A DNA stretch of 64,000 bases, from positions 744,001 through 808,000 of the forward strand of contig NZ_JBEPOC010000001.1 in assembly GCF_040546585.1 (NCBI RefSeq). The letters are read 5' to 3'. This document shows, piece by piece, positions 47,376-62,737 of the stretch; the first letter of the stretch is position 1, and each line of letters opens with the position of its first letter. The notes beneath the pieces are model-generated. The model saw only the letters and a program-made list of their open reading frames with translations, was not told the DNA's origin and ran no database searches. The position numbers and the translations under genes were made by a program. The DNA is from Marmoricola sp. OAE513. GTDB taxonomy: Bacteria; Actinomycetota; Actinomycetes; Propionibacteriales; Nocardioidaceae.

Positions 47376-47537
47376 CGCCGACCGGGCTCAGATGTCCCAC
47401 CCACACGCGCCGACCGGTCTGAGATGTCCCGGATCTCGGCAGCGAGATCTGGGACATCTGTGCCCTCTCGACGTCGCCACGCGGGACATCTGTGCCCTCT
47501 CGGCGTCGCCACGCGGGACATCTGTGCCCTCTCGGCG
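47376..47537. repeat. Second intergenic array of five units (2 inverted, 3 direct)
   Basis: Inverted copies at 47376-47398 and 47408-47430, direct copies at 47451-47473, 47483-47505 and 47515-47537, all with a 32-base period. The direct units are GGGACATCTGTGCCCTCTCG followed by (A/G)CG. The layout is identical to the array at 946-1093 and about 17 of 23 positions agree with it. The array fills the space between two convergent genes and its last unit abuts the TAA of the Ddn-like gene. Confidence 0.85.
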
Positions 47538-48020
47538 TTACCGGGGACTGAGGATGACCACCGGGATCTCGCGCTCGGTCCAGGACTGGTAGTTCTCGAA
47601 GTCGGCGTACAGGTCGACCAGCTTCGGCCACACCGCAGCGCGTTCCTCGGCGTTCGCCGTGCGGGCGTGCACGGCGCGGACCTCGCCCTTGATCTGCACC
47701 CGGGTGTCCGGGGTCGCCATCAGGTTCGCGTACCACTGCGGGTTCTTCGGCAACCCGCCCTGGGACGCGACGATCACGACGTCGGGGCCGTCGACCAGGT
47801 ACAGCAGCGGCGTGGTGAACGCCTTGCCGGACTTGCGGCCCACGTGGTCGAGCAGCAGTGTCGGGACCGGCTTCTTCCAGCCCGCACCGATCCGCCACTT
47901 GCCGCCGATGCGTCCCTTCGTCAACCGGTAGACCCGGACGTGCGCCTTGCCGGCGTACTTCATCACGTTCGGCACGATCGGGGAGTCGAGTCCCTCGGGC
48001 TTCTTCTTCAGCTCGGCCAC
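47538..48020 (-). CDS. F420-dependent nitroreductase-family protein (Ddn-like)
   Basis: A 160-residue deazaflavin-dependent oxidoreductase: KWRIGAGWKKPVPTLLLDH, VGRKSGKAFTTPLLYL, VIVASQGGLPKNPQWYANL, DTRVQIKGEVRAVHAR. Ddn-type enzymes use F420H2 to reduce quinones or other acceptors and are membrane associated. The GTG at 48020 has AGGTGAG upstream and lies four bases after the upstream SDR stop, forming an SDR-SDR-Ddn unit that diverges from the monooxygenase operon. Confidence 0.9.
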   Translation of the reverse strand: MAELKKKPEGLDSPIVPNVMKYAGKAHVRVYRLTKGRIGGKWRIGAGWKKPVPTLLLDHVGRKSGKAFTTPLLYLVDGPDVVIVASQGGLPKNPQWYANLMATPDTRVQIKGEVRAVHARTANAEERAAVWPKLVDLYADFENYQSWTEREIPVVILSPR

Positions 48021-48024
48021 GAGC

Positions 48025-48837
48025 TCACCTCTTCTTCCGCGCAGCGCGCTTGCGCTGCTTGTCGACGAACTTGACGGACGCTCGGCGGGTGAAACCGGGC
48101 GCGAGACGTTGCAACCGGTAGGCCATCCGGGCCTGGACCGGCTCGATGACCATCGCCTCACCTGCCGCTACGGCCTCGAGCACCTTGCCGGCCAGGACGG
48201 CGGGATCGACCGGGTTCCGGACGCCTTGGCCCTTCAGGTAGTAGTCCCGGCCGGAGATTCTGCCGATCTCTCCCTGGTCGAGGATCGGGGTGTCGACCGC
48301 CGCCGGGCAGACCACCGTCACCCCCACGCCGTACGCCGCCGCCTCCGAGCGCAGCGCGGCCGAGAGACCGACGACCGCGTGCTTGGTGGTCACGTAGGAG
48401 GTGATCAAGCCGGCCGCCATCAACCCGCCCATCGACGCCGTGTTCACGATGGTGCCCGAGCCCTGCTTGATCATCTGCGGGTACGCCGCCGCGACGCCGT
48501 GGACGACGCCCCGGATGTTGACGTCGATGATCTTGTTCCACTGCGCCAGCGTGATGTCCTGGGTCTCGCCGATGAAGGTGATGCCGGCGTTGTTGAACAG
48601 CAGGTCCAGACGGCCGTGCTCGGCGACGACGTCGTCGACCAGCGCCTGAACAGCCTCCGCGTCGGTGACGTCCAGCGCGCGACCCTCTGCCCCTGGCTCC
48701 AGGTCGGCGACGACCGCGATGGCCCCGGCCTGCCGCAGTGCCGTCACCAGCGCGGCGCCGATGCCCGAGCCACCGCCGGTGACGATCGCGGTCTTGCCGA
48801 CGTACCAGTCAGGAGGCACGGTGGCCCGGCGGCTCAC
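48025..48837 (-). CDS. Short-chain dehydrogenase/reductase
   Basis: A 270-residue SDR: cofactor site VTGGGSGIGAAL, NNAG in LLFNNAGITF, catalytic Ser and YxxxK in NTASMGG and SYVTTKHAV. The C-terminus is rich in Arg/Lys (KQRKRAARKKR). The GTG at 48837 overlaps the preceding SDR stop (GTGA). A long open frame through the adjacent genes is a shadow. The likely role is oxidising or reducing an alcohol/ketone of the same pathway as the divergent monooxygenase. Confidence 0.9.
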   Translation of the reverse strand: MSRRATVPPDWYVGKTAIVTGGGSGIGAALVTALRQAGAIAVVADLEPGAEGRALDVTDAEAVQALVDDVVAEHGRLDLLFNNAGITFIGETQDITLAQWNKIIDVNIRGVVHGVAAAYPQMIKQGSGTIVNTASMGGLMAAGLITSYVTTKHAVVGLSAALRSEAAAYGVGVTVVCPAAVDTPILDQGEIGRISGRDYYLKGQGVRNPVDPAVLAGKVLEAVAAGEAMVIEPVQARMAYRLQRLAPGFTRRASVKFVDKQRKRAARKKR

Positions 48838-49565
48838 CCGAACGCCTTCATCACGTGCGCCTGCAGGTCCGGGTAGCGCTTGAGGTGCGCGCCGCCGTTG
48901 ATGTCCAGGCTCTCCCCGGTGATCCAGCGGGAGTCGTCGGACAGCAGGAACCGGAGCGCCGCCGCGATCTCGGACGGCTCGCCGCTGCGACCCAGCGGGG
49001 TGTTCTCCAGGTAGTCGTCCTCGATCCCGGGAATGTCCATCGCCGGGGCGGTCAGCGGCGTCACGACCAGACCCGGAGCGACCGAGTTGACCCGGATGCC
49101 GCGGTGCGCGAGCTCGAGCGCCGCGACCTCGGTCAGCATGTTCACCCCGGCCTTGGCAGAGCAGTACGCGACCAGGCCGCCACCGGGCTGCCGTCCGTTG
49201 AGCGACGAGAGCGTCACCAGCGATCCCCCGTCGGCGACCCGGCGACCCGCGTGCTTGAGCACCAGGAAGGCGCCCGTCAGGCAGACGTCGACGACCCGTC
49301 GGAACTCGGCCGCGTCGTGGTCGATCACCGCACCCAGCGTGCTCACGCCGGCGCAGTTGACCACGCCGGTGAACGACCCGTGCTCGGCCAGCACCCGGTC
49401 GAACAGCGCGGCCACCGAGTCCTCGTCCGCGACGTCGACGGCGATGACGTCGTCCCCCGGGGTGATGTCCGCGACGACGACGGTGTGGCCGTGCGCACGA
49501 AGGTCCTCGACGGTCGCCCGACCGATTCCGGACGCTCCGCCGATGACGACGGTGGTGAGGCTCAT
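48834..49565 (-). CDS. Short-chain dehydrogenase/reductase
   Basis: A 243-residue SDR: VIGGASGIGRATV, VNCAGVST, YCSAKAGVNML (YxxxK), and PGLVVTPLTAP, with WITGESLDINGGAH at the C-terminus typical of NAD(P)-dependent alcohol dehydrogenases. The ATG at 49565 has AGGAG upstream. One paired operator lies directly upstream, between it and the monooxygenase gene. Together with the next SDR it may supply the ketone used by the monooxygenase. Confidence 0.9.
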   Translation of the reverse strand: MSLTTVVIGGASGIGRATVEDLRAHGHTVVVADITPGDDVIAVDVADEDSVAALFDRVLAEHGSFTGVVNCAGVSTLGAVIDHDAAEFRRVVDVCLTGAFLVLKHAGRRVADGGSLVTLSSLNGRQPGGGLVAYCSAKAGVNMLTEVAALELAHRGIRVNSVAPGLVVTPLTAPAMDIPGIEDDYLENTPLGRSGEPSEIAAALRFLLSDDSRWITGESLDINGGAHLKRYPDLQAHVMKAFG

Positions 49566-49575
49566 CTGCTCTCCT

Positions 49576-49585
49576 GACAGGTGTC
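49576..49585. promoter_or_regulatory. Operator site 1, GACAGGTGTC
   Basis: An imperfect inverted repeat (GACA..TGTC) at 49576-49585, centred 20 bases from the perfect palindrome at 49594-49607. It covers the region where the SDR promoter -10 would lie. Confidence 0.5.
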
Positions 49586-49593
49586 TGGGTTGA

Positions 49594-49607
49594 TTGACAC
49601 GTGTCAA
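49594..49607. promoter_or_regulatory. Operator site 2, perfect palindrome TTGACACGTGTCAA
   Basis: A perfect 14-base palindrome. Its first six bases are TTGACA, the -35 of the divergent monooxygenase promoter, and its last six read TTGACA on the other strand. Binding would block both directions. The EthR-like TetR encoded at 51018 is the best candidate ligand-responsive repressor. Confidence 0.65.
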
Positions 49608-49622
49608 CATAGCGCCTAACGT
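49594..49622 (+). promoter_or_regulatory. Monooxygenase operon promoter
   Basis: TTGACA (49594-49599), 17 bases, TAACGT (49617-49622). Transcription would start near 49629, leaving a leader of about 43 bases before GTG 49672 with GGAGG four bases before the start. Confidence 0.6.
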
Positions 49623-49671: not shown

Positions 49672-51021
49672 GTGCCCAGCACCAGCAAGAACGTCGCGAT
49701 CATCGGCGCCGGCATCAGCGGCCTGACGACCTCGAAGATGCTCACCGACTACGGCGTGCAGCACACCGTCTTCGAGTCCTCCGACCGGGTCGGCGGCAAC
49801 TGGGCTTTCGGCAACCCGAACGGGCACAGCAGCGCCTACCGCTCGCTGCACATCGACACCTCGAAGGAGCGGCTCTCCTTCCGGGACTTCCCGATGCCGC
49901 CGGAGTACCCGGACTTCCCGCACCACACCCAGATCAAGGCCTACCTCGACTCCTACGCCGACGCGTTCAGCCTGCGCGAGAACATCGAGTTCGAGAACGG
50001 CGTCGAGCACGCCACCCACCTGGGAAACGGTCTCGGCTGGGAGATCCTCGACCAGGCCGGGGCGACCCGGCACTTCGACCACCTCGTCGTCGCCAACGGC
50101 CACCACTGGGACCCCCGCTTCGCCGAGTTCCCCGGCGAGTTCTCCGGCGTCTCGATCCACAGCCACCACTACATCGACCCGAAGGCGCCGCTGGACTTCT
50201 TCGGTCAGCGCATCCTCGTGGTGGGCCTGGGCAACAGCGCCGCCGACATCGCGGTCGAGCTGTCCAGCAAGTCGCTGCAGACCGAGGTCTCGCTCTCGAC
50301 CCGGTCCGGGGCCTGGATCGTGCCGAAGTACGTCTACGGCAAGCCCGCCGACACGATGTACCGGACCACGCCGTACCTGCCGCTGTCGTGGCAGCGGAAG
50401 ATCATGCAGCTGGCCCAGCCGATGAACGGCTCGAACGGCGCGCTGTACGGGCTCAAGGAGCCGAACCACAAGTTCTTCGAGGCCCACCCCACCCAGTCGG
50501 TCGAGCTGCCGCTGCGGCTCGGTTCGGGTGACGTGATCCCCAAGCCGAACATCTCCCGCCTCGACGGCAGCACGGTCCACTTCGAGGACGGCACCAGCGG
50601 CGAGTTCGACGTGATCGTCTACGCCACCGGCTACAACATCACCTTCCCGTTCTTCGACCGCGACTTCCTCTCGGCGCCCGAGAACCACCTGCCGCTGTAC
50701 AAGCGGATGTTCAAGCCGGGCCAGGAGGACCTGACCTTCATCGGGTTCGCCCAGTCGACCCCGACGCTGTTCCCGTTCGTCGAGAGCCAGTCGCGGCTCG
50801 CGGCCGCGCACCTGATCGGCGAGTACGCACTGCCGGACGAGGCGACCATGGAGCGGGTGATCGCCGAGGACGAGGAGAAGTACATCGGCCACGTGCTCAA
50901 GACGGCCCGGCACACCCAGCAGGTCGATTACTTCATCTACGAGCACGACATCCGCGCCAAGGAGATCCCGGCCGGCAGGGCGCGCGCGAAGGCTCAGCAG
51001 TCGACCCTGGCCGCCCGGTGA
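49672..51021 (+). CDS. Flavin-containing monooxygenase (Baeyer-Villiger type candidate)
   Basis: A 449-residue FAD/NADPH class B monooxygenase. The N-terminal FAD fold is GAGISGLTTSKML; the FMO/BVMO fingerprint FxGxxxHxxxY appears as FSGVSIHSHHY; the NADPH fold is VVGLGNSAADIAV. Class members oxidise ketones to esters or N/S atoms. GTG 49672 is chosen because GGAGG is four bases upstream; an earlier TTG at 49594 lies inside the operator. The stop overlaps the TetR start (GTGA), recalling the EthA-EthR pair of mycobacteria. Confidence 0.9.
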   Translation: MPSTSKNVAIIGAGISGLTTSKMLTDYGVQHTVFESSDRVGGNWAFGNPNGHSSAYRSLHIDTSKERLSFRDFPMPPEYPDFPHHTQIKAYLDSYADAFSLRENIEFENGVEHATHLGNGLGWEILDQAGATRHFDHLVVANGHHWDPRFAEFPGEFSGVSIHSHHYIDPKAPLDFFGQRILVVGLGNSAADIAVELSSKSLQTEVSLSTRSGAWIVPKYVYGKPADTMYRTTPYLPLSWQRKIMQLAQPMNGSNGALYGLKEPNHKFFEAHPTQSVELPLRLGSGDVIPKPNISRLDGSTVHFEDGTSGEFDVIVYATGYNITFPFFDRDFLSAPENHLPLYKRMFKPGQEDLTFIGFAQSTPTLFPFVESQSRLAAAHLIGEYALPDEATMERVIAEDEEKYIGHVLKTARHTQQVDYFIYEHDIRAKEIPAGRARAKAQQSTLAAR

Positions 51022-51671
51022 GCGAGGCCATCTCCGAGGCGGCTCCCGAGCCCGGAGCCTGGAACCGCCTCGTCGACCGGCGCAGCGGCAACCGCGGCGA
51101 CGTCCGCCGCGACGCGCTGCTCACCGCGCTCGACGAGCTGCTCCAGGAGAAGACGCTGGAGGAGGTCAACGTCGCGGAGATCTCCGGACGCGCCGGCGTG
51201 ACCCGCTCGGCCTTCTACTTCTACTTCGAGTCCAAGGCCATGGCCGTGATGGCGCTGATGAGCGACTTGTACGACGCCGCTGCCGCCGCCAACGAGCTCC
51301 TGGTCGCGGCCGAGGGCGACGCCGAGGACCGGGTGCGCACGGCGATCACCGGCCTCTTCGACTCCGTCGACAGCAGCCCGCACACCTACCGGGCGCTCCT
51401 GGAGGCGCGGGCGTCCAGCGCGGGCGTGCGCGCGATGTGGGACGCCGGTCGCGCCGAATTCGCGAGCGTGATCGCCGGGATGATCGCCACCGAGCGCTCC
51501 GCCGGACGCGCGACCTCCGGACCGGACGCCGAGGTGCTGGCCTCGGTCCTGCTCGACCTCAACGACCACGCCGTCGAGCGGCACTCGCTCGGCTCCGGCC
51601 CACCGCGGGACCAGCACATCGCGACCCTGACCTTCACCTGGCTGCGCACCATCTACGGAGAGAACCGATGA
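51018..51671 (+). CDS. TetR regulator, EthR-like
   Basis: A 217-residue TetR protein with helix-turn-helix EISGRAGVTRSAFYFYFESK and an EthR-type ligand domain ending IYGENR, the same terminus as mycobacterial EthR. EthR represses the ethA monooxygenase; here the TetR gene directly follows an FMO gene and likely binds the two palindromes between the FMO and SDR genes. The GTG overlaps the FMO stop. Ligand unknown. Confidence 0.9.
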   Translation: MSEAISEAAPEPGAWNRLVDRRSGNRGDVRRDALLTALDELLQEKTLEEVNVAEISGRAGVTRSAFYFYFESKAMAVMALMSDLYDAAAAANELLVAAEGDAEDRVRTAITGLFDSVDSSPHTYRALLEARASSAGVRAMWDAGRAEFASVIAGMIATERSAGRATSGPDAEVLASVLLDLNDHAVERHSLGSGPPRDQHIATLTFTWLRTIYGENR

Positions 51672-52666
51672 CCCCAGAGAACCTCACCTTCAGCTCGCAG
51701 GGCACGACCTGCGCGGCCTGGCACTTCCCCGCCACCGACGACGGGTTGACGACGGCCACTGGTCGCCCGGTCGTCGTGATGGCGCACGGCCTCGGTGGCA
51801 CCAAGGACTCCGGGCTCGCCCCGTTCGCCGAGGCGTTCGCCGCGGCCGGCCTGGACGCGTTCGTCTTCGACTACCGCGGCTTCGGTGAGAGCGAGGGGGC
51901 GCCGCGACAGACGGTCTCGCTCCCGGGTCAGCTCGAGGACTGGCGCGCCGCGATCGCCGCCGCAGGCAGGTTGCCCGGGGTGGACCCCCAGCGGATCGTG
52001 CTGTGGGGCGAGTCCCTGGCCGGCGGCCACGTGCTCAGCGCCGCGGCCGACCGCACCGACATCGCCGCGGTGGTCTCGGTGGTCCCGATGGTCGACGGCA
52101 TCGCCGCCGGGCTGCACGCGACGAAGTCGCACAGCGCCCGCGAGCTGCTCAAGGCCACCGGCCTCGGCATCGCCAGCAAGATCTCCGAGGCCCGCGGACG
52201 CGGCGCCTCGATGATCCCGATCGTCGCCCGCCCCGGCGAGGTCGGCGCGCTCACGGTCGCCGGCGCCCTGGAGGACATGCTCAGCATCGCCGGACCGACC
52301 TGGCGCAACGAGATCGCCGCCCACGTGACCCTCGAGCTCGGCACGCGTGCCCCCGCCAAGGCAGCCTCGCGGATCAAAGCCCCCGTGCTCGTGCAGATCT
52401 GCGACTTCGACCAGAGCTCTCCCCCGCACGCCGCGGCCAAGGCCGCCTTCGCCGCCCAGGCGGAGGTACGGCACTACCCGGGCGACCACTTCGACACCTT
52501 CCCCGGCAAGCCGTTCCACGAGCCGGCCGTGAAGCACGCGGTCAGCTTCCTGACCCGGAAGCTGGGTGCTGAGGTCACCACGTCTCGGCAAGCTCGACGA
52601 CCGGAGGGCTCGGCCGTCGAGCTCGTCGAGACGTCCGCACCGACGCAGGGAGCGCACCGTGGCTGA
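51668..52666 (+). CDS. Alpha/beta hydrolase
   Basis: A 332-residue serine hydrolase: MAHGLGGTKDSGLAPFAE (oxyanion), VFDYRGFGESEGAP, nucleophile WGESLAGGHVL (GxSxxG), and HYPGDHFDTF with His near the C-terminus. After a Baeyer-Villiger step, a hydrolase of this kind would open the ester or lactone. The last about 30 residues (VTTSRQARRPEGSAVELVET) are encoded by a dispersed palindromic repeat, so the natural C-terminus of the ancestor was probably shorter. The ATG overlaps the TetR stop. Confidence 0.85.
   Translation: MTPENLTFSSQGTTCAAWHFPATDDGLTTATGRPVVVMAHGLGGTKDSGLAPFAEAFAAAGLDAFVFDYRGFGESEGAPRQTVSLPGQLEDWRAAIAAAGRLPGVDPQRIVLWGESLAGGHVLSAAADRTDIAAVVSVVPMVDGIAAGLHATKSHSARELLKATGLGIASKISEARGRGASMIPIVARPGEVGALTVAGALEDMLSIAGPTWRNEIAAHVTLELGTRAPAKAASRIKAPVLVQICDFDQSSPPHAAAKAAFAAQAEVRHYPGDHFDTFPGKPFHEPAVKHAVSFLTRKLGAEVTTSRQARRPEGSAVELVETSAPTQGAHRG
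52573..52640. repeat. Dispersed palindromic element (family 2) inside a gene end
   Basis: ACGTCTCG-GCA-AGCTCGAC (52580-52598) pairs with GTCGAGCT-CGT-CGAGACGT (52616-52634): sixteen matched bases per arm with a 3-base mismatch. It is the same family as 15694-15803 and 61079-61216 and lies within the hydrolase coding end, just before the FadD-like start. Confidence 0.7.
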
Positions 52667-54260
52667 GACCGTGCAGCAGCTCGTCCGCGCCCTCGCCGAC
52701 TCCGACTCCCCCGGCCTCGCCTTCGGCGAGGACTCCTGGTCCTGGCGCGAGACCGTCGGGGACGCCGCCGCCCGGGCGCACGTGCTGCGCGGCTGGGCAG
52801 CACCGGACCGACCCCTGCACGTGGGTGTCCTCCTCGAGAACACCCCCGAGATGATCCGTGCCCTGCTGGCCGGAGCGATCGGCGCGCACGTCACCGCCGG
52901 CATCAACGCCACCCGCCGTGGCGAGTCGCTCGCGGCCGACGTACGCCGCGCCGACTGCCAGGTGCTGCTCACCGACACCGAGCACCTCCCGCTGCTCGAC
53001 GGTCTGGACCTGGGCGGCGCACGGGTGGTGAACACCGACGGCGAGGAGTGGGCTTCCCTGGTCGGCGCGGCCGACCGGAGCACCGACGGCTTCGAGGAGG
53101 TCGGTGCGATGGACACCTTCATGCTGATCTTCACCTCGGGCACCAGCGGTGAGCCCAAGGCCGTCCAGGTCAGCAACTTCATGGTCGTGATGTCCGGCAG
53201 CGTCCTGTCGGACAAGTACGGGCTGACCCCCGCGGACGTCTGCTACTGCGCGATGCCGCTGTTCCACTCCAACGCGATCATGGCCTCGTTCGCCCCGGCG
53301 CTCTGCGGCGGTTCGACGATCGCGCTGGCCCGGAAGTTCAGCGCCACCAGCTTCCTGAGCGACATCCGCTCCTACGGCGCGACGTACATGAACTACGTCG
53401 GGAAGCCGCTCGCGTACGTGCTGGCCACCCCGGAGCTGCCCGACGACGCCGACAACCCGCTGCGAACCGCGTTCGGCAACGAGGCCTCGGACCGGGACAT
53501 CGCCGAGTTCGGCCGCCGCTTCGGCTGCACCGTCTGGGACGGTTTCGGTTCGACCGAGACCGCGGTGATCATCACCCGCACCGACGACACGCCGCTCGGC
53601 TCGATCGGCCAGCCGTTCGACGGCGTCGCGGTCTACGACAAGGAGACCCGCACCGAGTGCCCGCGGGCCGTCTTCGACGCCTCCGGTGCGGTGACCAACC
53701 TCGACGAGGCCGTCGGCGAGCTGGTGAACACCCAGGGCGCCGGATTCTTCTCGGGCTACTACAACGACGAGAAGGCGACCAACGACCGCCTCGACGGTGG
53801 CATGTACTGGTCCGGGGACCTCGGCTACCGCGACGAGGCCGGGTTCATCTACCTGGCCGGCCGCACCGACGACTGGCTGCGGGTCGACGGCGAGAACCTC
53901 GCTGCCGCCCCGATCGAGGCCCTCCTGCTGCGTCACCCCGCCATCAGCCAGGCTGCCGTGTACGCCGTCCCGGACGCCAACGTGGGCGACCAGCTGATGG
54001 TCACCCTGGTGCTGCGCGACGGCACGAGCCTCGAGCCCGCCGCGTTCGAGGCGTTCCTCGCCGAGCAGCCCGACCTCTCCCCCAAGGGCTGGCCCCGCTA
54101 CGTGCGGATCGCCGAGGAGGTCCCCACGACGGCGACCAACAAGGTGCTCAAGCGGGCGCTGCGCACCGAAGGCACGAACACCACCGACCCGCTGTGGGAG
54201 CGCGAGGAGCGCGGCCGCGCGTACCGTCCGGTCGTCGAGCCTGTCGAGACGCCGTCGTGA
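52659..54260 (+). CDS. Acyl-CoA synthetase, FadD17-like
   Basis: A 533-residue AMP-forming acyl-CoA ligase: P-loop IFTSGTSGEPKAV, GFGSTETAVI, WSGDLGYRD, the Arg-containing GRTDDWLRVDGENL and the catalytic Lys region TNKVLKRALR. It best resembles mycobacterial FadD17, part of the KstR/cholesterol gene set. It would activate a carboxylic acid made upstream. GTG 52659 has GGGAG upstream and overlaps the hydrolase by eight bases. The C-terminus RPVVEPVETPS is encoded by a half copy of the dispersed repeat. Confidence 0.9.
   Translation: MAETVQQLVRALADSDSPGLAFGEDSWSWRETVGDAAARAHVLRGWAAPDRPLHVGVLLENTPEMIRALLAGAIGAHVTAGINATRRGESLAADVRRADCQVLLTDTEHLPLLDGLDLGGARVVNTDGEEWASLVGAADRSTDGFEEVGAMDTFMLIFTSGTSGEPKAVQVSNFMVVMSGSVLSDKYGLTPADVCYCAMPLFHSNAIMASFAPALCGGSTIALARKFSATSFLSDIRSYGATYMNYVGKPLAYVLATPELPDDADNPLRTAFGNEASDRDIAEFGRRFGCTVWDGFGSTETAVIITRTDDTPLGSIGQPFDGVAVYDKETRTECPRAVFDASGAVTNLDEAVGELVNTQGAGFFSGYYNDEKATNDRLDGGMYWSGDLGYRDEAGFIYLAGRTDDWLRVDGENLAAAPIEALLLRHPAISQAAVYAVPDANVGDQLMVTLVLRDGTSLEPAAFEAFLAEQPDLSPKGWPRYVRIAEEVPTTATNKVLKRALRTEGTNTTDPLWEREERGRAYRPVVEPVETPS
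54230..54251 (+). repeat. Half copy of dispersed element (family 2)
   Basis: GGTCGTCGAGCCTGTCGAGA is the left arm of the family-2 element without its partner. It codes for VVEPVET at the end of the FadD17-like protein. Confidence 0.6.
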
Positions 54261-55228
54261 GGGTCGCCGTCACCGGCGCCGCCGGCTTCCTCGGGCTCAA
54301 CGTCGTGAACGCCCTGCTCGCCGAGGGCCACGACGTGCTCGCGATCGACCGGGTCTCGCTGGACGACCCGCGAGTCACCTCCCAGATCGTCGACGTCCTC
54401 GACGAGGAGGCGATGACCGCGGCCCTCCAGGGCATCGAGGTCGTCTACCACCTGGTGGCCGTGATCAGCCTGCGCCAGGAGGATCCGCTCGCCGAGCGGG
54501 TCAACGTCCACGGCGTCGGTGCGGTGGCTCGCGCCGCCCTGCGCGCCGGCGTACGGCGGATGGTGAACTGCGGCTCGCTGGCCTCCTTCGACTACGAGCG
54601 GAACGGCACCGTCCACGAGGGCTCGCGCCGCTCCACCGACCCGCGCCTGCCGGTCTACCACCGGTCGAAGTACTACGGCGAGGTCGAGCTGCTCAAGGTC
54701 GTCCACGAAGGTCTCGACGCGCTGACCTGCAACCCGACCGGCATCTACGGGCCGGTCGACCACCCGGACCGGCTCTCCCGGATGAACGTCAGCCTCCTCG
54801 ACGCCGCCTGCGGCAGGCTCCCGGCCAGCGTGCCGGGCCTGTTCGACATGGTCGACGTCCGCGACGTCGCCCAAGGTTTCCTGCTCGCCGCCGAGAAGGG
54901 TCGGACCGGTCACAACTACCTGCTCGGTGGCCACCGGTTCGACCTGTTCGACGCGCAGGTGCTCGCCGCGACGTACGCCGGCCAGCAGGGTCCCCGCATC
55001 AGGATCCCGATGCGGCTGCTGCAGACGGTCGCACCGCTCGTCGACCCGATCGCCCGACGGTTCGGGTCGGAGTCGTTCGCGCCCGCGGCCCTGGAGAACA
55101 TCTCGATGAGCCCGGTGGTCGACCGCTCCAAGGCGGGCGCCGAGCTGGGCTACGAACCGAGGTCGACCCAGGACACGGTCCGCGACCTGGTCGACTTCTT
55201 CGCCGCGAATGGAATGCTGCAGCGATGA
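54257..55228 (+). CDS. NAD-dependent epimerase/dehydratase family protein
   Basis: A 323-residue extended SDR: GAAGFLGLNVVNALL cofactor motif, catalytic Tyr and Lys in VYHRSKYYGEVELL, and PTGIYGPVDHPDRL. It resembles 3-beta-hydroxysteroid dehydrogenases and dihydroflavonol reductases. In this operon it could oxidise a hydroxyl of a CoA intermediate or ring alcohol. The GTG overlaps the ligase stop. Confidence 0.85.
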   Translation: MRVAVTGAAGFLGLNVVNALLAEGHDVLAIDRVSLDDPRVTSQIVDVLDEEAMTAALQGIEVVYHLVAVISLRQEDPLAERVNVHGVGAVARAALRAGVRRMVNCGSLASFDYERNGTVHEGSRRSTDPRLPVYHRSKYYGEVELLKVVHEGLDALTCNPTGIYGPVDHPDRLSRMNVSLLDAACGRLPASVPGLFDMVDVRDVAQGFLLAAEKGRTGHNYLLGGHRFDLFDAQVLAATYAGQQGPRIRIPMRLLQTVAPLVDPIARRFGSESFAPAALENISMSPVVDRSKAGAELGYEPRSTQDTVRDLVDFFAANGMLQR

Positions 55229-55914
55229 GCGACCTGACCCCCGCGCCGTCCGAGCCCGTCGACCCGCCGACCCCGACGGGCCAGAGCACCCGCCTGGTCC
55301 TCGTCGGAGTGGCCGTCCTGGCCGCGATCGGCCTCGCCGTCGGTGGCGTCCTGATCGCGACCAAGGACAGCGATGACGACGGCACCACCGGCGCCACCCC
55401 GGCACCGTGCGGCAGCGTGATCTCCCGGGAGACCGACAAGACCCAGCAGCACACCGACGACGAGGACGTCGACTACGCCGACGCTCCCCCGTCCTTCGGC
55501 GAGCACTTCCCCCGGTGGGAGCCGTTCGGCCGCGCGTTCTACGGCGACGACCGCCCGCCGGTCTCGCACCTGGTGCACAACCTGGAGCACGGCTACACGA
55601 TCGCCTGGTACGACGAGGCCATCGCGAAGGACGAGGATGCGATGGACGACCTCGCCGACATCGCCCAGGACTACCAGGACGAGCAGGAGCGGTTCATCGC
55701 CGTGCCGTGGAAGTCCTCGGACGGCGACGACTTCCCAGACGACATGCACGTCGCACTGACCCGCTGGTCGGCCGACCCCGACGACCCGGCCGACCTGGAC
55801 GCCCAGCGCGGCAACTGGCTCTACTGCGGCGGCGTCGAGGCCGACGCGATCGACGACTTCGTCGAGGCGTTCCCCAACGAGCGCTCCCCCGAACCCGGGA
55901 TCCCGCTCGAATGA
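55225..55914 (+). CDS. DUF3105 membrane protein
   Basis: A 229-residue protein with one N-terminal membrane helix (LVLVGVAVLAAIGLAVGGVLI), an acidic linker and the DUF3105 domain containing VSHLVHNLEHGYTIAWYDE. The His-rich motif suggests metal binding. Its domain lies outside the membrane. DUF3105 is of unknown function. It sits between two oxidoreductase genes with ATGA overlaps on both sides, so it belongs to the operon, but its part is unclear. Confidence 0.85.
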   Translation: MSDLTPAPSEPVDPPTPTGQSTRLVLVGVAVLAAIGLAVGGVLIATKDSDDDGTTGATPAPCGSVISRETDKTQQHTDDEDVDYADAPPSFGEHFPRWEPFGRAFYGDDRPPVSHLVHNLEHGYTIAWYDEAIAKDEDAMDDLADIAQDYQDEQERFIAVPWKSSDGDDFPDDMHVALTRWSADPDDPADLDAQRGNWLYCGGVEADAIDDFVEAFPNERSPEPGIPLE

Positions 55915-57026
55915 GCGCCTCGGTCCAGCGCTTCCCCGAGCTCGGCTGCTACGGCCTGGCCGGGCACTCCGCCAGCCCGAAGGACCTGATCGACGAAGCC
56001 CGACTGGCCGAGCAGCTCGGCCTCGGCTCGATCTTCCTGTCCGAGCGGTTCAACACCAAGGACGCCGGCGTGATGGCCGGTGCCGCGATCGCCGCGACCA
56101 GCACGCTGGGCATCGGCACCGCGGCCACCAACCACAACACCCGGCACCCGCTGGTCACCGCGACGATGGCGACCACGGCGCACCGGCTCTCCGAGGGGCG
56201 GTACGCGCTCGGGCTGGGCCGCGGCTTCGGGCTGCTCTTCGACCTGATGGGGGTGCCGAAGGTGACCAGCGCCCAGCTCGAGGACGCCGTCGGGATCTAC
56301 CGGAAGCTCTGGCACGGCGAGGCCGTCGCCGGGCACGACGGTCCGGCGGGCCAGTACGCCTACCTCAACCAGGACGCCTCCTTCGACGAGGACATCCCGG
56401 TCCTGATGATGGCCATCGGCGACAACACGCTCGACCTGGCCGGCCGCATCGCCGACGGCGTCGTGCTGCACACCTTCTTCAGCGACGAGACCCTGGCGCG
56501 CGCGGTCACCCGGATCCGGGACGCCGCCGAGCGGGCCGGGCGCGACCCGTCCTCGGTACGGATCTGGTCGGTGCTCGCCACGGTCGAGGACTCGCTGCCC
56601 GAGGAGCTGAGGCTGCGCAAGCTGGTCGGTCGGCTGGCCACCTACCTGCAGGGGTACGGCGCCGCGCTCGTCACCGCGAACGGGTGGGACCCTGCCGATC
56701 TGGAAGCCTTCCGCAACCACCCGCTGGTGCAGGGCTACCCCGGCGCGTTCGACGCGATCGGCACGACCGAGGAGCTGACCCGGTTGCGCGAGGAAGCCCT
56801 GCCGGAGCACTGGCTCGCCGCCTCGGCGACGGGCACGGCCGAGCGGTGCGCCCAGCGCGTGCTCGACCAGTTCGACGCCGGGGCGGACAGCGTGATCCTG
56901 CACGGTGCGACCCCGACCGAGCTCGCGCCGGTGCTCACCGCGTGGGAGAAGATCCGACCTGCCGACCGGTTCGCCGGCCTGCCCGACAACCCCGGCCTCA
57001 CCGCCGCAGGAGTGTTCCGCCCATGA
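55911..57026 (+). CDS. LLM-class F420-dependent oxidoreductase
   Basis: A 371-residue luciferase-like TIM barrel of the F420 group: IDEARLAEQLGLGSIFLSER, RHPLVTATMATTAHRLSEGRYALGLG, and IADGVVLHTFFSD. It resembles mycobacterial Rv3520c, found in the cholesterol gene region. It likely uses F420 or F420H2 on a substrate of the operon. Both ends overlap their neighbours (ATGA). Confidence 0.88.
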   Translation: MSASVQRFPELGCYGLAGHSASPKDLIDEARLAEQLGLGSIFLSERFNTKDAGVMAGAAIAATSTLGIGTAATNHNTRHPLVTATMATTAHRLSEGRYALGLGRGFGLLFDLMGVPKVTSAQLEDAVGIYRKLWHGEAVAGHDGPAGQYAYLNQDASFDEDIPVLMMAIGDNTLDLAGRIADGVVLHTFFSDETLARAVTRIRDAAERAGRDPSSVRIWSVLATVEDSLPEELRLRKLVGRLATYLQGYGAALVTANGWDPADLEAFRNHPLVQGYPGAFDAIGTTEELTRLREEALPEHWLAASATGTAERCAQRVLDQFDAGADSVILHGATPTELAPVLTAWEKIRPADRFAGLPDNPGLTAAGVFRP

Positions 57027-58114
57027 CGCGATCGTCGCTCGGCTCCCCTCCCGTCGACCTGCCCGTGCTCGGCTCCCTCGACGAGCTCAGCACGACCTGG
57101 CTCAGCACCGCGCTCGGCGCCGAGGTCGAGGGCTTCACGTTGTCGCCCGTCGGCACGGGACAGATGGGGTCCTGCTACCGGATCACCCTGACCGGTGACA
57201 CCGCCCTGCCCGGCACGGCTCTGCTCAAGCTGCCGTCAGCGGACGAAGGCACCCGCGCGATGGTGGCAGGCGCGTACCGCACCGAGGTGCGGTTCTACAC
57301 CGAGGTGCTGCCGACCGTCGGCATCCACACCCCGCGCCGCTACGCGACCAGCACGGTCGGCGACGACGGTCTGTTCGCGATGCTGCTCGAGGACATGGCA
57401 CCCGCGCAGCAAGGGGACCAGATAGCCGGTTGCACCCCGGACCAGGCCCGCGACGCCGCGGTGAACCTGGCCGGCCTGCACGGACCGCGCTGGTCCGACC
57501 CCACGCTGCACGACGTCGAGGGCCTCACCCTGAGCGGACCGGACGACGCAGCCCTGCTCGCCGAGGTCTACGGACCGGCCACCGACACCTTCCTCGAGCA
57601 GCTGGGCGACGCGCTGACCCCGGAGACGCAGGAGACCCTGCGCCGGTGCGTCGGCGCCGCCGAGCAGTGGTCGCTGGCCCGCCAGTCCGAGCGCTTCGGG
57701 CTGGTGCACGGCGACTACCGCCTCGACAACCTGCTCTTCCTCGCCGACCCTGGCGCGGACGCGCTGCCGGTGAGCGCGGTCGACTGGCAGACGCTCAGCC
57801 TCGGGCTCCCTGCCCGCGACCTCGCCTACCTGCTCGGCACCGGCCTCTCGGTCGAGGACCGCCGTGAGCACGAACGCGCGATCGTCGAGGAGTACCACGC
57901 CGACCTGCTGGTCTACGGGGTCACGGACTACACCGCCGAGCAGGCCTTCGACGACTACCGGTTCGCGATGCTGCAGGGGCCGCTCGTCAGCGTCTTCGGT
58001 TGCGCGTACGGCGCGCGCACCGAGCGCGGCGACGCGATGTTCGCGGCGATGGTGAACCGGTCCTGCACGGCGATGCGCGATCTCGGGACCCTGGACCTGG
58101 TGGGGGCGTCGTGA
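57023..58114 (+). CDS. Aminoglycoside phosphotransferase-fold kinase-like protein
   Basis: A 363-residue small-molecule kinase-fold protein: VGTGQMGSCYRITL (nucleotide loop), FAMLLEDMAPAQQGDQ (hinge), catalytic HGDYRLDNLLF and Mg-binding VDWQTLSLGLPARDLAYLL. Related proteins in catabolic operons of actinobacteria phosphorylate alcohols or CoA intermediates and are often called phosphotransferase. Antibiotic resistance is unlikely in this context. Both ends overlap the LLM genes. Confidence 0.85.
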   Translation: MTRSSLGSPPVDLPVLGSLDELSTTWLSTALGAEVEGFTLSPVGTGQMGSCYRITLTGDTALPGTALLKLPSADEGTRAMVAGAYRTEVRFYTEVLPTVGIHTPRRYATSTVGDDGLFAMLLEDMAPAQQGDQIAGCTPDQARDAAVNLAGLHGPRWSDPTLHDVEGLTLSGPDDAALLAEVYGPATDTFLEQLGDALTPETQETLRRCVGAAEQWSLARQSERFGLVHGDYRLDNLLFLADPGADALPVSAVDWQTLSLGLPARDLAYLLGTGLSVEDRREHERAIVEEYHADLLVYGVTDYTAEQAFDDYRFAMLQGPLVSVFGCAYGARTERGDAMFAAMVNRSCTAMRDLGTLDLVGAS

Positions 58115-59118
58115 AGCTCGACCTGCAGCTCGACGGCCGTCCCGACGAGGCGGCCCAGCGTGCTCGCGAGCTGATCGACGCCGGCGTCGACGGCCTGTTC
58201 ACCTTCGAGGGACCGCACGACGTCTTCCTGCCGCTGATCGTCGCCGCCGGCTCGTCCGACGTACCGCCGACCGACCTGATGACCAACGTCGCGATCGCGA
58301 TCCCGCGCAGCCCGATGCACCTGGCGAACATGGCCTACGACCTGCAGCTGCTCTCCGGCGGCCGGTTCCGGCTCGGGCTCGGTTCCCAGATCAAGCCGCA
58401 CATCGAGAACCGGTACGGCGCCGAGTGGAGCCGACCGGCCGCGCGGATGCGCGAGACGGTGCTCGCCGTGAAGGCGATCCTGAACGCGTGGCAGGACGGC
58501 ACCCGCCTCGACTTCCGCGGCGAGTTCACCAAGCACACGTTGATGCCGCCGACCTTCGTCCCCGGCCCCAACCCGTACGGCGTCCCGCCGGTCCTGCTCG
58601 GAGCCCTCGGCCCTGTGATGACGCGGACCGCGGCCGAGGTCGCCGACGGCCTGCTGGTGATGCCGTTCCACAGCCACCGGCACTTCCGCGAGCGCACGTT
58701 GACGGCCGTCGCCGAGGGTCTCGAGCTCGCCGGACGCGACCGCATCGACATCTACCCGCAGGCAATCGTCGCGATGGGCGAGACCCCCGACGAGATCACC
58801 GCAGCGAGCTTCGGGGTGAAGGGCCTGCTCGCGTTCTACGGCTCGACGCCGGCGTACAAGTCGGTCCTCGACATCGAGGGCTGGGGCGACCTGCAGCCCG
58901 AGCTGAACGCGCTGTCGAAGACCGGCGACATCATGAAGATGATCGACCTGATCGACGACGACGTGATGCGCACGCTGGCGGTCGTCGGCACGCCCGCCGA
59001 GTGCGCCGCCGAGATCAAGACCCGGTTCGGCGACGTGGCCGAGCGCATCTGCGCCTACTTCCCCGGGAGCACCCACCCGGCGGCGACGATCAGCGCGCTG
59101 GCGGAGGCGTTGAAGTAG
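58111..59118 (+). CDS. LLM-class F420-dependent oxidoreductase
   Basis: A 335-residue luciferase-like protein: LDLQLDGRPDEAAQRAREL, RSPMHLANMAYDLQLLSGGRFRLGLGSQIKPHI, and VADGLLVMPFHSHRHFRER. It belongs to an F420-associated LLM group distinct from the previous one. It is the last gene of the nine-gene chain. The GTG overlaps the kinase-like stop (GTGA). Confidence 0.88.
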   Translation: MKLDLQLDGRPDEAAQRARELIDAGVDGLFTFEGPHDVFLPLIVAAGSSDVPPTDLMTNVAIAIPRSPMHLANMAYDLQLLSGGRFRLGLGSQIKPHIENRYGAEWSRPAARMRETVLAVKAILNAWQDGTRLDFRGEFTKHTLMPPTFVPGPNPYGVPPVLLGALGPVMTRTAAEVADGLLVMPFHSHRHFRERTLTAVAEGLELAGRDRIDIYPQAIVAMGETPDEITAASFGVKGLLAFYGSTPAYKSVLDIEGWGDLQPELNALSKTGDIMKMIDLIDDDVMRTLAVVGTPAECAAEIKTRFGDVAERICAYFPGSTHPAATISALAEALK

Positions 59119-61078: not shown

Positions 61079-61216
61079 CTCAGGTCACCACATCTCGGCA
61101 AGCTCGATGACCGGGCAGGCTCGGTGACCGGGCAGGCTCGGTGACCGGGCAGGCTCGGTGACCGGGCAGGCTCGATGACCGGGCGCGCTCGATGACCGGG
61201 CGCGCTCGATGACCGA
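61079..61216. repeat. Family-2 element plus 17-bp tandem repeats
   Basis: GGTCACCACATCTCGGCAAG begins a dispersed element; from 61103 the CTCGRTGACCGGGCAGG unit recurs seven times with an exact 17-base period (61103, 61120, 61137, 61154, 61171, 61188, 61205). The last copies change to GCGCG and run into the stop codon of the cyclase gene at 61217. Confidence 0.8.
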
Positions 61217-62737
61217 CTAGAGCGGGACCGCGAGCGTGGTCTCCTCCAACCGCCCGCGCAGCAGGATCGGCTCGAGCAACCGCCACCGCCGCTGCTCGCC
61301 GTACCCGGCCCGGTCGATGATCCGTTCGGAAGCCACCACCCGTTCGGGCCGGTCCTTGGCCTGCTCGGTCAACCGGGCGGCCTCGTTCACGGCGTCACCG
61401 ATGACGGTGTACTCCAACCGCTCGGTCGACCCGATGTTGCCCGCGATCACCAGGCCGTGCGAGACGCCGATCCCGGCGTCGAGGTCGGGGACCTCCGCGC
61501 GCAGCCGCTGCGCCATGGTGCGCGCCGCGGCCAGGGCGGACGCCGCCGGGTCGTGCAGCTCCAGCGGGGCACCGAAGATGCAGAGCGCGGCGTCACCCTC
61601 GAACTTGTTGACCAGGCCGCCGAACTCGGAGACCACCGCGACGACGACCTCGAAGAACCGGTTCAGCGCGGCGACCACCTCGGCGGCGGAGTGCGTCGCG
61701 GCGAAGGTGGTCGAGCCGATCACGTCGACGAACAGCGCCGCCGCCTCGCGCTCCTCGCCCCCGAGGTCGACGCCGCGCGAGAGCGCCAGCCGGGCGACGT
61801 CCTCACCGACGTGCCGGCCGAACAGGTCGCGCAGCTGCTCACGCTCCTTGAGCGCGTAGACCATGTTGTTGAGGCCGGACTGCAGCTGGCCGATCTCCCC
61901 CGCGTCGTTGACCGGGACCTCCACCGAGAGGTCACCTTCTTCGATCGCGGCCAACGCCTCGGTGAGGTCCCCGAGCGGTTCGCCCACCGACTTGGCGAAC
62001 AGCACGGTCGCGACGAACCCCGTCGCGAGTGCACCCAGGCCGACGACCAGACCGCTGACGGCGACCTGTCGCAGCGACACCCCGGTCTCGCCGGCGAAGG
62101 CCACCAGCCCGATCAGGCCGAGCACCGGGACCCCGGTGGTCAGGCTCCAGATGAAGATCGCCTTCTGCGCCACCCCTGCGGACGTGCCGGCCTTCGGCGG
62201 TGAGAGCGCCAGCACCCGGGTGATCGCGGACTTGAACAGCCGCATGCAGAGCAGGTACGACGTCGCCGCCGTCGCCAGGCCGCTGATGATCGTGGCCGTC
62301 GAGAGCTGCAGCGCGTACATGGCGCTGACGTCGAGGTTGGCGTAGAAGAACACCACGCAGGAGAACGCCCAGAGGGCGACCTGCATCCAGAACAGCCACC
62401 ACGGCAGGTTCAGGGTGAGCTCGCGCTCCTCGGCGTTCGGCGGCGTACCGCGGACCGTCCAGCCGAGCGCACGGCGCGCGCGAGGAGCACCGACCACGCC
62501 GAGCACCAGCCAGCTGAACCCGACCAGCGCGAACCCGAGGAAGACGTTGCCGCGCACGACCTCCGGCGTGGAGACGTCGTCGGGGAACGGCAGCACCACC
62601 AGGTAGTCGACGATGAGGATCGCCGCGCCGATCACGTTGGCCGCCCAGACCAGTCCGATCACCTCGAACGGGCGCACCCCGCGGAGGTCCGGGCCGTGCA
62701 GCCCGTGCAGGTCGTAGAGGCGGCGCATGCTCCGCAT
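61217..62737 (-). CDS. Membrane adenylate cyclase with HAMP domain
   Basis: A 506-residue class III cyclase of the mycobacterial Rv1318c-Rv1320c type. Six hydrophobic helices (for example FEVIGLVWAANVIGAAILIV, FLGFALVGFSWLVLGVV) are followed by a HAMP linker (LTEALAAIEEGDLSVEVPVNDAGEIGQL) and the catalytic domain with Asp in AALFVDVIGSTTF and NKFEGDAALCIFG and a C-terminal ATP-site TVIGDAVNEAARL. It signals by cAMP in response to membrane or environmental cues. Start ATG 62737; 62728 is an alternative. Confidence 0.9.
   Translation of the reverse strand: MRSMRRLYDLHGLHGPDLRGVRPFEVIGLVWAANVIGAAILIVDYLVVLPFPDDVSTPEVVRGNVFLGFALVGFSWLVLGVVGAPRARRALGWTVRGTPPNAEERELTLNLPWWLFWMQVALWAFSCVVFFYANLDVSAMYALQLSTATIISGLATAATSYLLCMRLFKSAITRVLALSPPKAGTSAGVAQKAIFIWSLTTGVPVLGLIGLVAFAGETGVSLRQVAVSGLVVGLGALATGFVATVLFAKSVGEPLGDLTEALAAIEEGDLSVEVPVNDAGEIGQLQSGLNNMVYALKEREQLRDLFGRHVGEDVARLALSRGVDLGGEEREAAALFVDVIGSTTFAATHSAAEVVAALNRFFEVVVAVVSEFGGLVNKFEGDAALCIFGAPLELHDPAASALAAARTMAQRLRAEVPDLDAGIGVSHGLVIAGNIGSTERLEYTVIGDAVNEAARLTEQAKDRPERVVASERIIDRAGYGEQRRWRLLEPILLRGRLEETTLAVPL

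Follow-up and report, generated by a model that had tools for sequence, protein, structure and literature searches.

A chain of nine overlapping genes with a divergent arm in Marmoricola sp. OAE513, probably one self-regulated pathway

Introduction

When each of nine consecutive genes overlaps the next, do they encode one pathway under a regulator of their own, and what would that pathway do? The question is raised by positions 49672-59118 of a stretch of 64,000 nucleotides (hereafter the window) of Marmoricola sp. OAE513, corresponding to positions 744001-808000 of the single contig of this 3.89-Mb genome. The genes encode, in order, a class B flavin monooxygenase (FMO), an EthR-type TetR regulator (TetR), an alpha/beta hydrolase (hyd), an acyl-CoA ligase (fadD), an extended short-chain dehydrogenase (SDR; this gene is herein epi), a DUF3105 protein, an LLM-family protein (LLM1), a small-molecule kinase (kin) and a second LLM-family protein (LLM2). 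The nine genes probably form one self-regulated pathway, and the chain is probably one co-regulated catabolic unit. With moderate confidence we interpret the locus as a single catabolic unit, divergently transcribed and under local regulation, in a soil-type actinobacterium of the Nocardioides/Marmoricola kind, in which a ketone would undergo oxygen insertion, ester cleavage and CoA activation.

Results and Discussion

Conserved junctions of the nine-gene chain

The original prediction, made from the sequence of the window, described nine genes joined by eight overlaps, seven of four bases and one of eight, and this description is exact: all nine frames are open from start to stop, and the overlaps read, in order, GTGA, ATGA, GTGGCTGA (the 8-base one), GTGA, ATGA, ATGA, ATGA and GTGA. 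Twenty 20-kb stretches (400 kb) were sampled from the same genome, and their genes were called with a rough, home-made caller for which eight cluster genes served as the training set. Of 257 neighbouring same-strand pairs, 82 overlap, including 52 with a four-base overlap, and the longest run of overlaps is seven; for the whole window, cluster included, the count is 21 of 46. When genomes were simulated under independence with the observed overlap rate and strand-run lengths, about 1% contained a run of at least eight. Single overlaps are thus ordinary, while a run of eight is rare.

Conservation of the junctions is stronger evidence than these statistics that the chain exceeds chance. With the same rough caller, and with the window itself included in the counts, hyd and fadD share exactly eight bases in all 11 loci and the FMO/TetR overlap is four bases in 16 of 17. 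TetR and hyd overlap in 16 of 17 loci (13 by four bases, three by one), and fadD and epi in all eight available (seven by four bases, one by ten). Junctions at DUF3105, LLM1 and the kinase are variable and available from few loci (overlapping for LLM1/kin in 4/5, for DUF3105/LLM1 in 1/2 and for kin/LLM2 in 2/2).

A REP-like repeat, GGTCGTCGAGCCTGTCGAGACG, occurs at 52581-52608 and 54224-54251, shortly upstream of two conserved overlaps, where it lies in frame within the hyd tail VELVETS and the fadD tail VVEPVETPS. The genome holds 111 forward and 99 reverse copies at up to three mismatches (control, 0). Copies or remnants are also found in the hyd and fadD tails of some relatives, the overlaps persisting regardless. 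A tandem array of the 17-base unit GGCAGGCTCGGTGACCG at 61080-61232 has at its beginning a copy that resembles this REP-like family.

The control region and its candidate operator

On the other strand, between 47538 and 49565, lie SDRb, SDRa and a Ddn-like gene, with 106 bases separating the start codons of SDRb and FMO. The divergent SDRs had been counted as part of the unit from the start, and they do share a control region with the chain; the unit therefore extends to the left, and the Ddn-like gene is to be added to it. Beside the Ddn-like gene, at 47434-47538, a unit of about 32 bases containing GGGACATCTGTGCCCTCTCG is repeated in three copies.

The SDRb-FMO spacer carries the perfect palindrome TTGACACGTGTCAA, which is the single site in the 3.89-Mb genome at up to two mismatches, compared with four forward and four reverse matches of a control pattern. 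For comparison among named organisms, we used the best 80 of at least 576 FMO matches in GTDB species (Nocardioides, Nocardia, Gordonia, Williamsia, Mycolicibacterium, Mycolicibacter and others; loci are numbered L, genomes G). With two mismatches allowed, the palindrome was detected upstream of FMO in 33 of the 34 loci with an in-operon EthR-type TetR gene, and in none of the 46 loci without one; the exception, L147, carries it with four mismatches. Since nearly all TetR-bearing loci belong to Nocardioides or close kin, these are not 80 independent cases.

By its C-terminal domain and its sequence relation to the EthR structure chains (E 1e-21), the regulator belongs to the EthR family. In the simplest reading it would be a dedicated local repressor of both arms, acting through the palindrome between SDRb and FMO. 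An EthR-family regulator also adjoins a class B flavin monooxygenase in the EthA-EthR pair of mycobacteria. Unlike that pair, the regulator here lies downstream in the same operon, the FMO lacks a Baeyer-Villiger fingerprint, and the candidate operator is a 14-bp palindrome. TGAC-N4-GTC sites similar to the imperfect second site CTGACAGGTGTCTG were seen by eye in several of 12 relatives inspected. A different TetR family (cluster 0) is present in 28 of the 80 loci; in seven loci drawn, from Nocardia, Williamsia, Aldersonia and Mycolicibacter (L132, L159, L160, L172, L177, L185 and L191), it stands divergently beside FMO in place of the in-operon EthR-type regulator of Nocardioides.

Genes that travel with the monooxygenase

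Genome-wide presence of LLM2 and fadD was determined in 98 genomes, the own genome and 97 relatives (limits of our choice, E <=1e-150 for FMO and E <=1e-100 for LLM2). FMO is present in 13 genomes, own included, all of which also carry LLM2 (15 genomes in total) and fadD (18 in total). In six of the 13 (G006, G016, G028, G035, G050 and G056, some of them drafts), FMO and LLM2 are on different contigs or more than 200 kb apart, so that linkage alone is insufficient to account for their co-occurrence.

Seven same-genus loci were chosen by a match to epi, which is therefore present in all of them by construction. Of the other genes, fadD, LLM2 and the Ddn-like gene are found in all seven, FMO, TetR and hyd in six, SDRa in five, LLM1 and SDRb in three, and the kinase and DUF3105 in two.

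Among the 80 named loci, the hydrolase is directly downstream of FMO in 76, and one of the four others stops at a contig end. With identity thresholds for orthologues set by hand, hyd is counted in 71, SDRb in 46, TetR in 34, fadD and the kinase in 20 each, SDRa in 16, LLM1 in 14, Ddn and LLM2 (within 10 kb of FMO) in five each, epi in four, DUF3105 in one and WS/DGAT in none. Of the 80, 56 also carry one or more genes from the group fadD, kin, LLM1, LLM2, SDRa, SDRb, epi and Ddn; in the 20 sampled stretches of the own genome, the sole control for co-location, none of 383 called proteins was a hit at the same thresholds. The kinase accompanies LLM1 in 13 of 14 loci and is present without it in seven. 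On a mobilizable Pseudonocardia plasmid, FMO, TetR, hydrolase, phosphotransferase and a TIGR03857 LLM gene are consecutive, with AMP-binding, SDR, CaiB and MaoC genes adjoining. From the locus counts and this plasmid, FMO and hydrolase are the core, with SDRs, ligase, LLMs and kinase recurring beside it in variable order. Co-conservation was the check proposed for the original prediction, and it does not extend to all nine genes: DUF3105, LLM1 and the kinase are present in some members of the genus and absent from others.

In Mycolicibacterium and Mycobacterium (L139, L143, L186 and others), FMO lies near genes of beta-oxidation, namely SDRs, thiolase and acyl-CoA dehydrogenases, with MaoC and CoA-transferase III in some.

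Table 1. Genes and candidate control sites of the locus (positions in the window).
Feature	Position	Strand	Basis
Ddn-like F420H2-dependent reductase family gene	47538..48020	-	NCBIfam TIGR00026, 119 bits (cut-off 46)
SDRa, short-chain dehydrogenase	48025..48837	-	motifs TGGGSGIG, NNAG, YVTTK
SDRb, short-chain dehydrogenase	48834..49565	-	motifs GGASGIG, NCAG, YCSAK; 4-base overlap with SDRa
Second, imperfect candidate operator-like site CTGACAGGTGTCTG	49573..49586		before SDRb; read by eye
Candidate operator, perfect palindrome TTGACACGTGTCAA	49594..49607		SDRb-FMO intergenic; unique site in the genome at <=2 mismatches
Possible promoter TTGACA-N17-TAACGT	49594..49622	+	read by eye; TTGACA covered by the palindrome
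FMO, class B flavin monooxygenase with Asp62	49672..51021	+	PF00743, 257 bits
EthR-type TetR regulator	51018..51671	+	EthR_C domain PF21313, 77 bits
Alpha/beta hydrolase (hyd), probably ester or lactone cleavage (predicted)	51668..52666	+	GESLAG, GDHFD motifs
Acyl-CoA ligase (fadD), FadD1/FadD17/CasI clade	52659..54260	+	NF009927 FadD1, 815 bits (cut-off 800)
Extended SDR (epi), 3beta-HSD/HpnA/SdmB-like	54257..55228	+	PF01370, PF01073
DUF3105 protein, N-terminal hydrophobic stretch, optional	55225..55914	+	PF11303, 64.5 bits
LLM1, F420-dependent family TIGR03857, optional in genus	55911..57026	+	376 bits (cut-off 218)
EcKL/APH-like small-molecule kinase (kin), optional in genus	57023..58114	+	PF02958, PF01636; HGDYRLDN, DWQ
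LLM2, F420-dependent family TIGR03617	58111..59118	+	429 bits (cut-off 278)

The flavin monooxygenase: ketone or heteroatom

The closest solved relatives of the FMO are AncFMO2 and AncFMO5, ancestral mammalian FMOs (E 7e-69). Fingerprint motifs of FMOs and Baeyer-Villiger enzymes are given in PMC10682829, which allows for fingerprints that are conserved in part. FxGxxxHxxxW(P/D), the fingerprint of type I Baeyer-Villiger enzymes, is absent: the corresponding segment is FSGVSIHSHHY, without the W form. It matches the class B3 motif FxGxxxHxxx(Y/F)(K/R) through Y, followed by Ile instead of Lys or Arg. At position 62, aligned to Asn of AncFMO2/5, the enzyme has Asp, and according to PMC10682829, FMOs of clades I-III mostly have Asn at this position and Baeyer-Villiger enzymes Asp. 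Asp62 is present in 79 of 79 readable copies, comprising the window and 78 of the 80 named loci (L131 and L180 lack the anchor motif), and also in homologues on the Pseudonocardia and a Mesorhizobium plasmid and in an own paralogue of 46-47% identity; a more distant own paralogue (32%) has Ile. With Asp62, insertion of oxygen into a ketone becomes plausible but is not proven, and as the type I fingerprint is absent we infer this step instead of reading it from a motif.

The FMO could instead be a nitrogen or sulfur oxygenase, and the unit would then degrade or detoxify an N- or S-containing natural product or xenobiotic, hydrolase and ligase acting on its side chains. The FMO-type FxGxxxHxxxY motif without a Baeyer-Villiger fingerprint agrees with this, as does the fact that the best solved matches are FMOs and that trimethylamine monooxygenase is the top-scoring NCBIfam family, although its cut-off is missed by a wide margin (108 versus 675 bits); in mammalian-type FMOs heteroatom oxygenation predominates, as stated in the accessible part of PMC10682829, and actinobacterial F420H2-dependent reductases reduce diverse compounds, as stated in that of PMC5449967. 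The uniform Asp62 in place of the usual Asn, however, argues against it, as do the constant company of an ester-hydrolase-like gene and the frequent company of a CoA ligase, and in Pfam and NCBIfam searches none of the other eight genes matched an amine- or sulfur-specific family. We consider heteroatom oxygenation unlikely.

Hydrolase, ligase and extended dehydrogenase

In the hydrolase, S116 and H274 are invariant in 22 sequences and candidate acids are present; its structure model (pLDDT 88.5) matches esterases, lipases and the thioesterase DcsB. The family labels first given to the genes agree with Pfam and NCBIfam, except that the ligase, labelled FadD17-like, passes the FadD1 cut-off and falls below that of FadD17 (NF005897, 629 versus 850 bits); it also falls below that of the steroid-22-oyl-CoA synthetase CasI (NF052587, 571 versus 900 bits). 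Matches to epi at 66-85% identity were found only in same-genus genomes (in G007 as two partial pieces), those in the other genomes of the 98 being at 31-35%. A weak pointer to isoprenoid or steroid-like acids comes from the ligase clade, which has steroid side-chain ligases as near relatives, and from the 3beta-HSD-like gene. The terpenoid or steroid ring breakdown that had been called likely is not demonstrated, and nothing found names the substrate.

Two further observations concern these families. At L197 (G000:C1:15001-35000), two acyl-CoA dehydrogenases adjoin a second fadD-clade ligase of 60-62% identity, an arrangement resembling the sterol side-chain genes fadE26-fadE27-fadD17 listed in PMC7807495, so that the host may degrade sterol side chains. 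In Nocardioides marmorisolisilvae (L117; L058 11498-12502), a second extended SDR, 64-66% identical to that of the window, is located between kinase and LLM2.

A simpler pathway would start from a methyl ketone, a 2-alkanone being converted to an alkyl acetate, which is cleaved by the esterase and followed by alcohol oxidation and FadD activation, much as in the acetone and methyl ethyl ketone operons. Such a scheme fits FMO and hydrolase as the most widespread core, which is frequently accompanied by an SDR and few other genes of the set, but leaves the F420-family enzymes, the extended SDR and the kinase without a role, and the ligase is in a clade with steroid side-chain acid ligases. This scheme is improbable.

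F420-family proteins and the kinase

LLM1 and LLM2 are assigned by profile to families named F420-dependent. The F420 biosynthesis gene cofD was found above cut-off in the genome, so F420 is likely made by the host. Within the literature searched, no paper was found under the labels TIGR03857, TIGR03617, MSMEG_2249 and MSMEG_2256.

In the kinase, K69, E88, H229, D231, N236 and D254 are invariant in 17 sequences, the catalytic residues being in place, and the structure model has a pLDDT of 93. The best solved profile matches, with only about 50-60 positions aligned, are 3dxp, an ACAD-linked APH protein (2e-10), and ACAD11 (1e-8), while choline kinases top the fold ranking; by fold the protein is of the general choline-kinase/APH type. 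Its relation to the 25-hydroxysteroid kinase of Sterolibacterium (9fsg) is one of shared APH kinase fold (Foldseek rank 25, E 2.6e-6, TM 0.47) with a weak sequence relation (profile E 0.005); an APH-fold steroid kinase acts there in the breakdown of steroid side chains during anaerobic cholesterol degradation, according to PMC8449060. Family searches detected no acyl-CoA dehydrogenase partner for the kinase among the genes of the cluster. On a Sphingobium plasmid (L216), a kinase relative of 35% identity has a P450-rubredoxin pair on one side and an acyl-CoA dehydrogenase on the other, with IS21 elements as flanks.

A WS/DGAT gene begins 325 bp downstream of the chain by its called start, and the enzyme mix is similar to that of the mymA operon, composed of FMO, LipR, SadH and FadD13. 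A cell-envelope lipid or wax operon of mymA type, in place of catabolism, is nevertheless very unlikely: WS/DGAT is present in none of the seven same-genus loci, the 80 named loci gave a single weak match under the threshold (L182, 36%, about 9 kb from FMO), and the core set on the plasmid adjoins CoA-transferase and MaoC genes. Least credible of all is accretion of unrelated redox genes through genome streamlining, with meaningless overlaps, which would suit the frequent overlaps genome-wide, the optional members and the lack of a single origin for the linked ligases in the fadD tree, but not the conserved junctions, the co-occurrence of unlinked genes and the dedicated palindrome.

A proposed ketone-cleavage pathway

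From the observed gene content, overlaps, palindrome with its company, and co-conservation, we propose the following pathway, in which all reactions, their order, repressor binding and the class of substrate are predicted. The in-operon EthR-type repressor would bind the palindrome and silence both arms until the substrate or its CoA ester appears. The SDRs would turn a secondary alcohol into a ketone, which the Asp62 FMO would convert to an ester or lactone by oxygen insertion. The overlapping hydrolase would open this product, and the FadD1-like ligase would form a hydroxyacyl-CoA. The extended SDR and F420-family enzymes, with LLM2 as the regular member and LLM1 and the Ddn-like protein as its partners, would then handle the hydroxyl group or a double bond, joined by the ACAD11/LvaA-like kinase where present, and beta-oxidation would follow. 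The substrate may be an alicyclic, terpenoid- or sterol-derived ketone, or a methyl ketone. The order of steps originally suggested is kept, since SDRs, oxygenase, ester hydrolase, CoA ligase and F420-family genes fit it, with oxygen insertion as its inferred part.

This catabolic reading is supported by the conserved junctions, the unique palindrome tied to TetR, the FMO-hydrolase adjacency and the co-occurrence of unlinked genes, and further by Asp62, the ester-hydrolase fold, cofD, the plasmid set and precedents of the same step order. Several points weigh against it. The Baeyer-Villiger fingerprint is absent, and the nearest solved relatives of the FMO are of mammalian type, that is, mainly heteroatom oxygenases. 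A consensus promoter scan detected no promoter at the control region, the promoter and the second operator being read by eye. Two of the 15 genomes with LLM2 lack FMO; close relatives differ in whether they carry DUF3105, LLM1, kinase and SDRb; and the FMO-linked copies are not united in the fadD tree, which gives them no single origin. The 80 named loci were chosen as the best FMO matches and are concentrated in a few genera, and as at least five of them (L116, L117, L130, L164 and L184) are also in the 98-genome set, the two sets are not independent. Family searches detected no acyl-CoA dehydrogenase, hydratase or thiolase among the genes of the cluster, so that beta-oxidation must come from elsewhere. 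Finally, the activities and the single transcript are predicted from the sequence.

Relation to described pathways

The original prediction knew no described pathway of this composition. This holds for the gene set, since no description of it was recognised in a literature search (titles, beginnings of abstracts, passages), but the step order is already described. For carvone and limonene breakdown in Rhodococcus erythropolis DCL14, the available text of PMC4097962 describes alcohol dehydrogenase, reductase, monocyclic monoterpene ketone monooxygenase and lactone hydrolase, then oxidation, CoA activation and beta-oxidation; unlike our locus, neither a kinase nor F420 is named in that text, and the likeness is one of step order, leaving oxygenase types aside. 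For alicyclic compounds in SAR202, the same order is proposed in the accessible part of PMC5395668, from SDR-dependent ketone formation through oxygen insertion and ring opening to a carboxylic acid, with many LLM-type enzymes. That proposal assigns the Baeyer-Villiger role to the LLM-type enzymes, whereas here a class B FMO stands beside LLMs of families named F420-dependent.

As in the lva operon, whose kinase LvaA is grouped with ACAD10/ACAD11, an APH-like kinase is encoded together with an acyl-CoA synthetase, and the HGDxxLDN-type loop is aligned with that of ACAD11; ACAD10/11 and LvaA act on 4-hydroxyacyl-CoA (PMC12440821, in the part available). Unlike lva and ACAD11, the chain has no acyl-CoA dehydrogenase partner, and the usual neighbour of the kinase is an F420-family LLM gene.

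Implications

A wider proposal, tentative and on present evidence unlikely, is that the locus represents a widespread, hitherto undescribed actinobacterial mode of ketone cleavage, in which an Asp62 enzyme of the FMO clade replaces the classical Baeyer-Villiger enzyme, and a kinase with an F420-dependent LLM clears the hydroxyacyl-CoA instead of the kinase and acyl-CoA dehydrogenase of lva and ACAD11. If the proposed catabolic pathway is correct, TIGR03857 and TIGR03617 would gain a testable function, as would one branch of the bacterial FMOs and one small-molecule kinase family, and the locus would provide a compact regulator-operator pair that may be used to find the inducing substrate.

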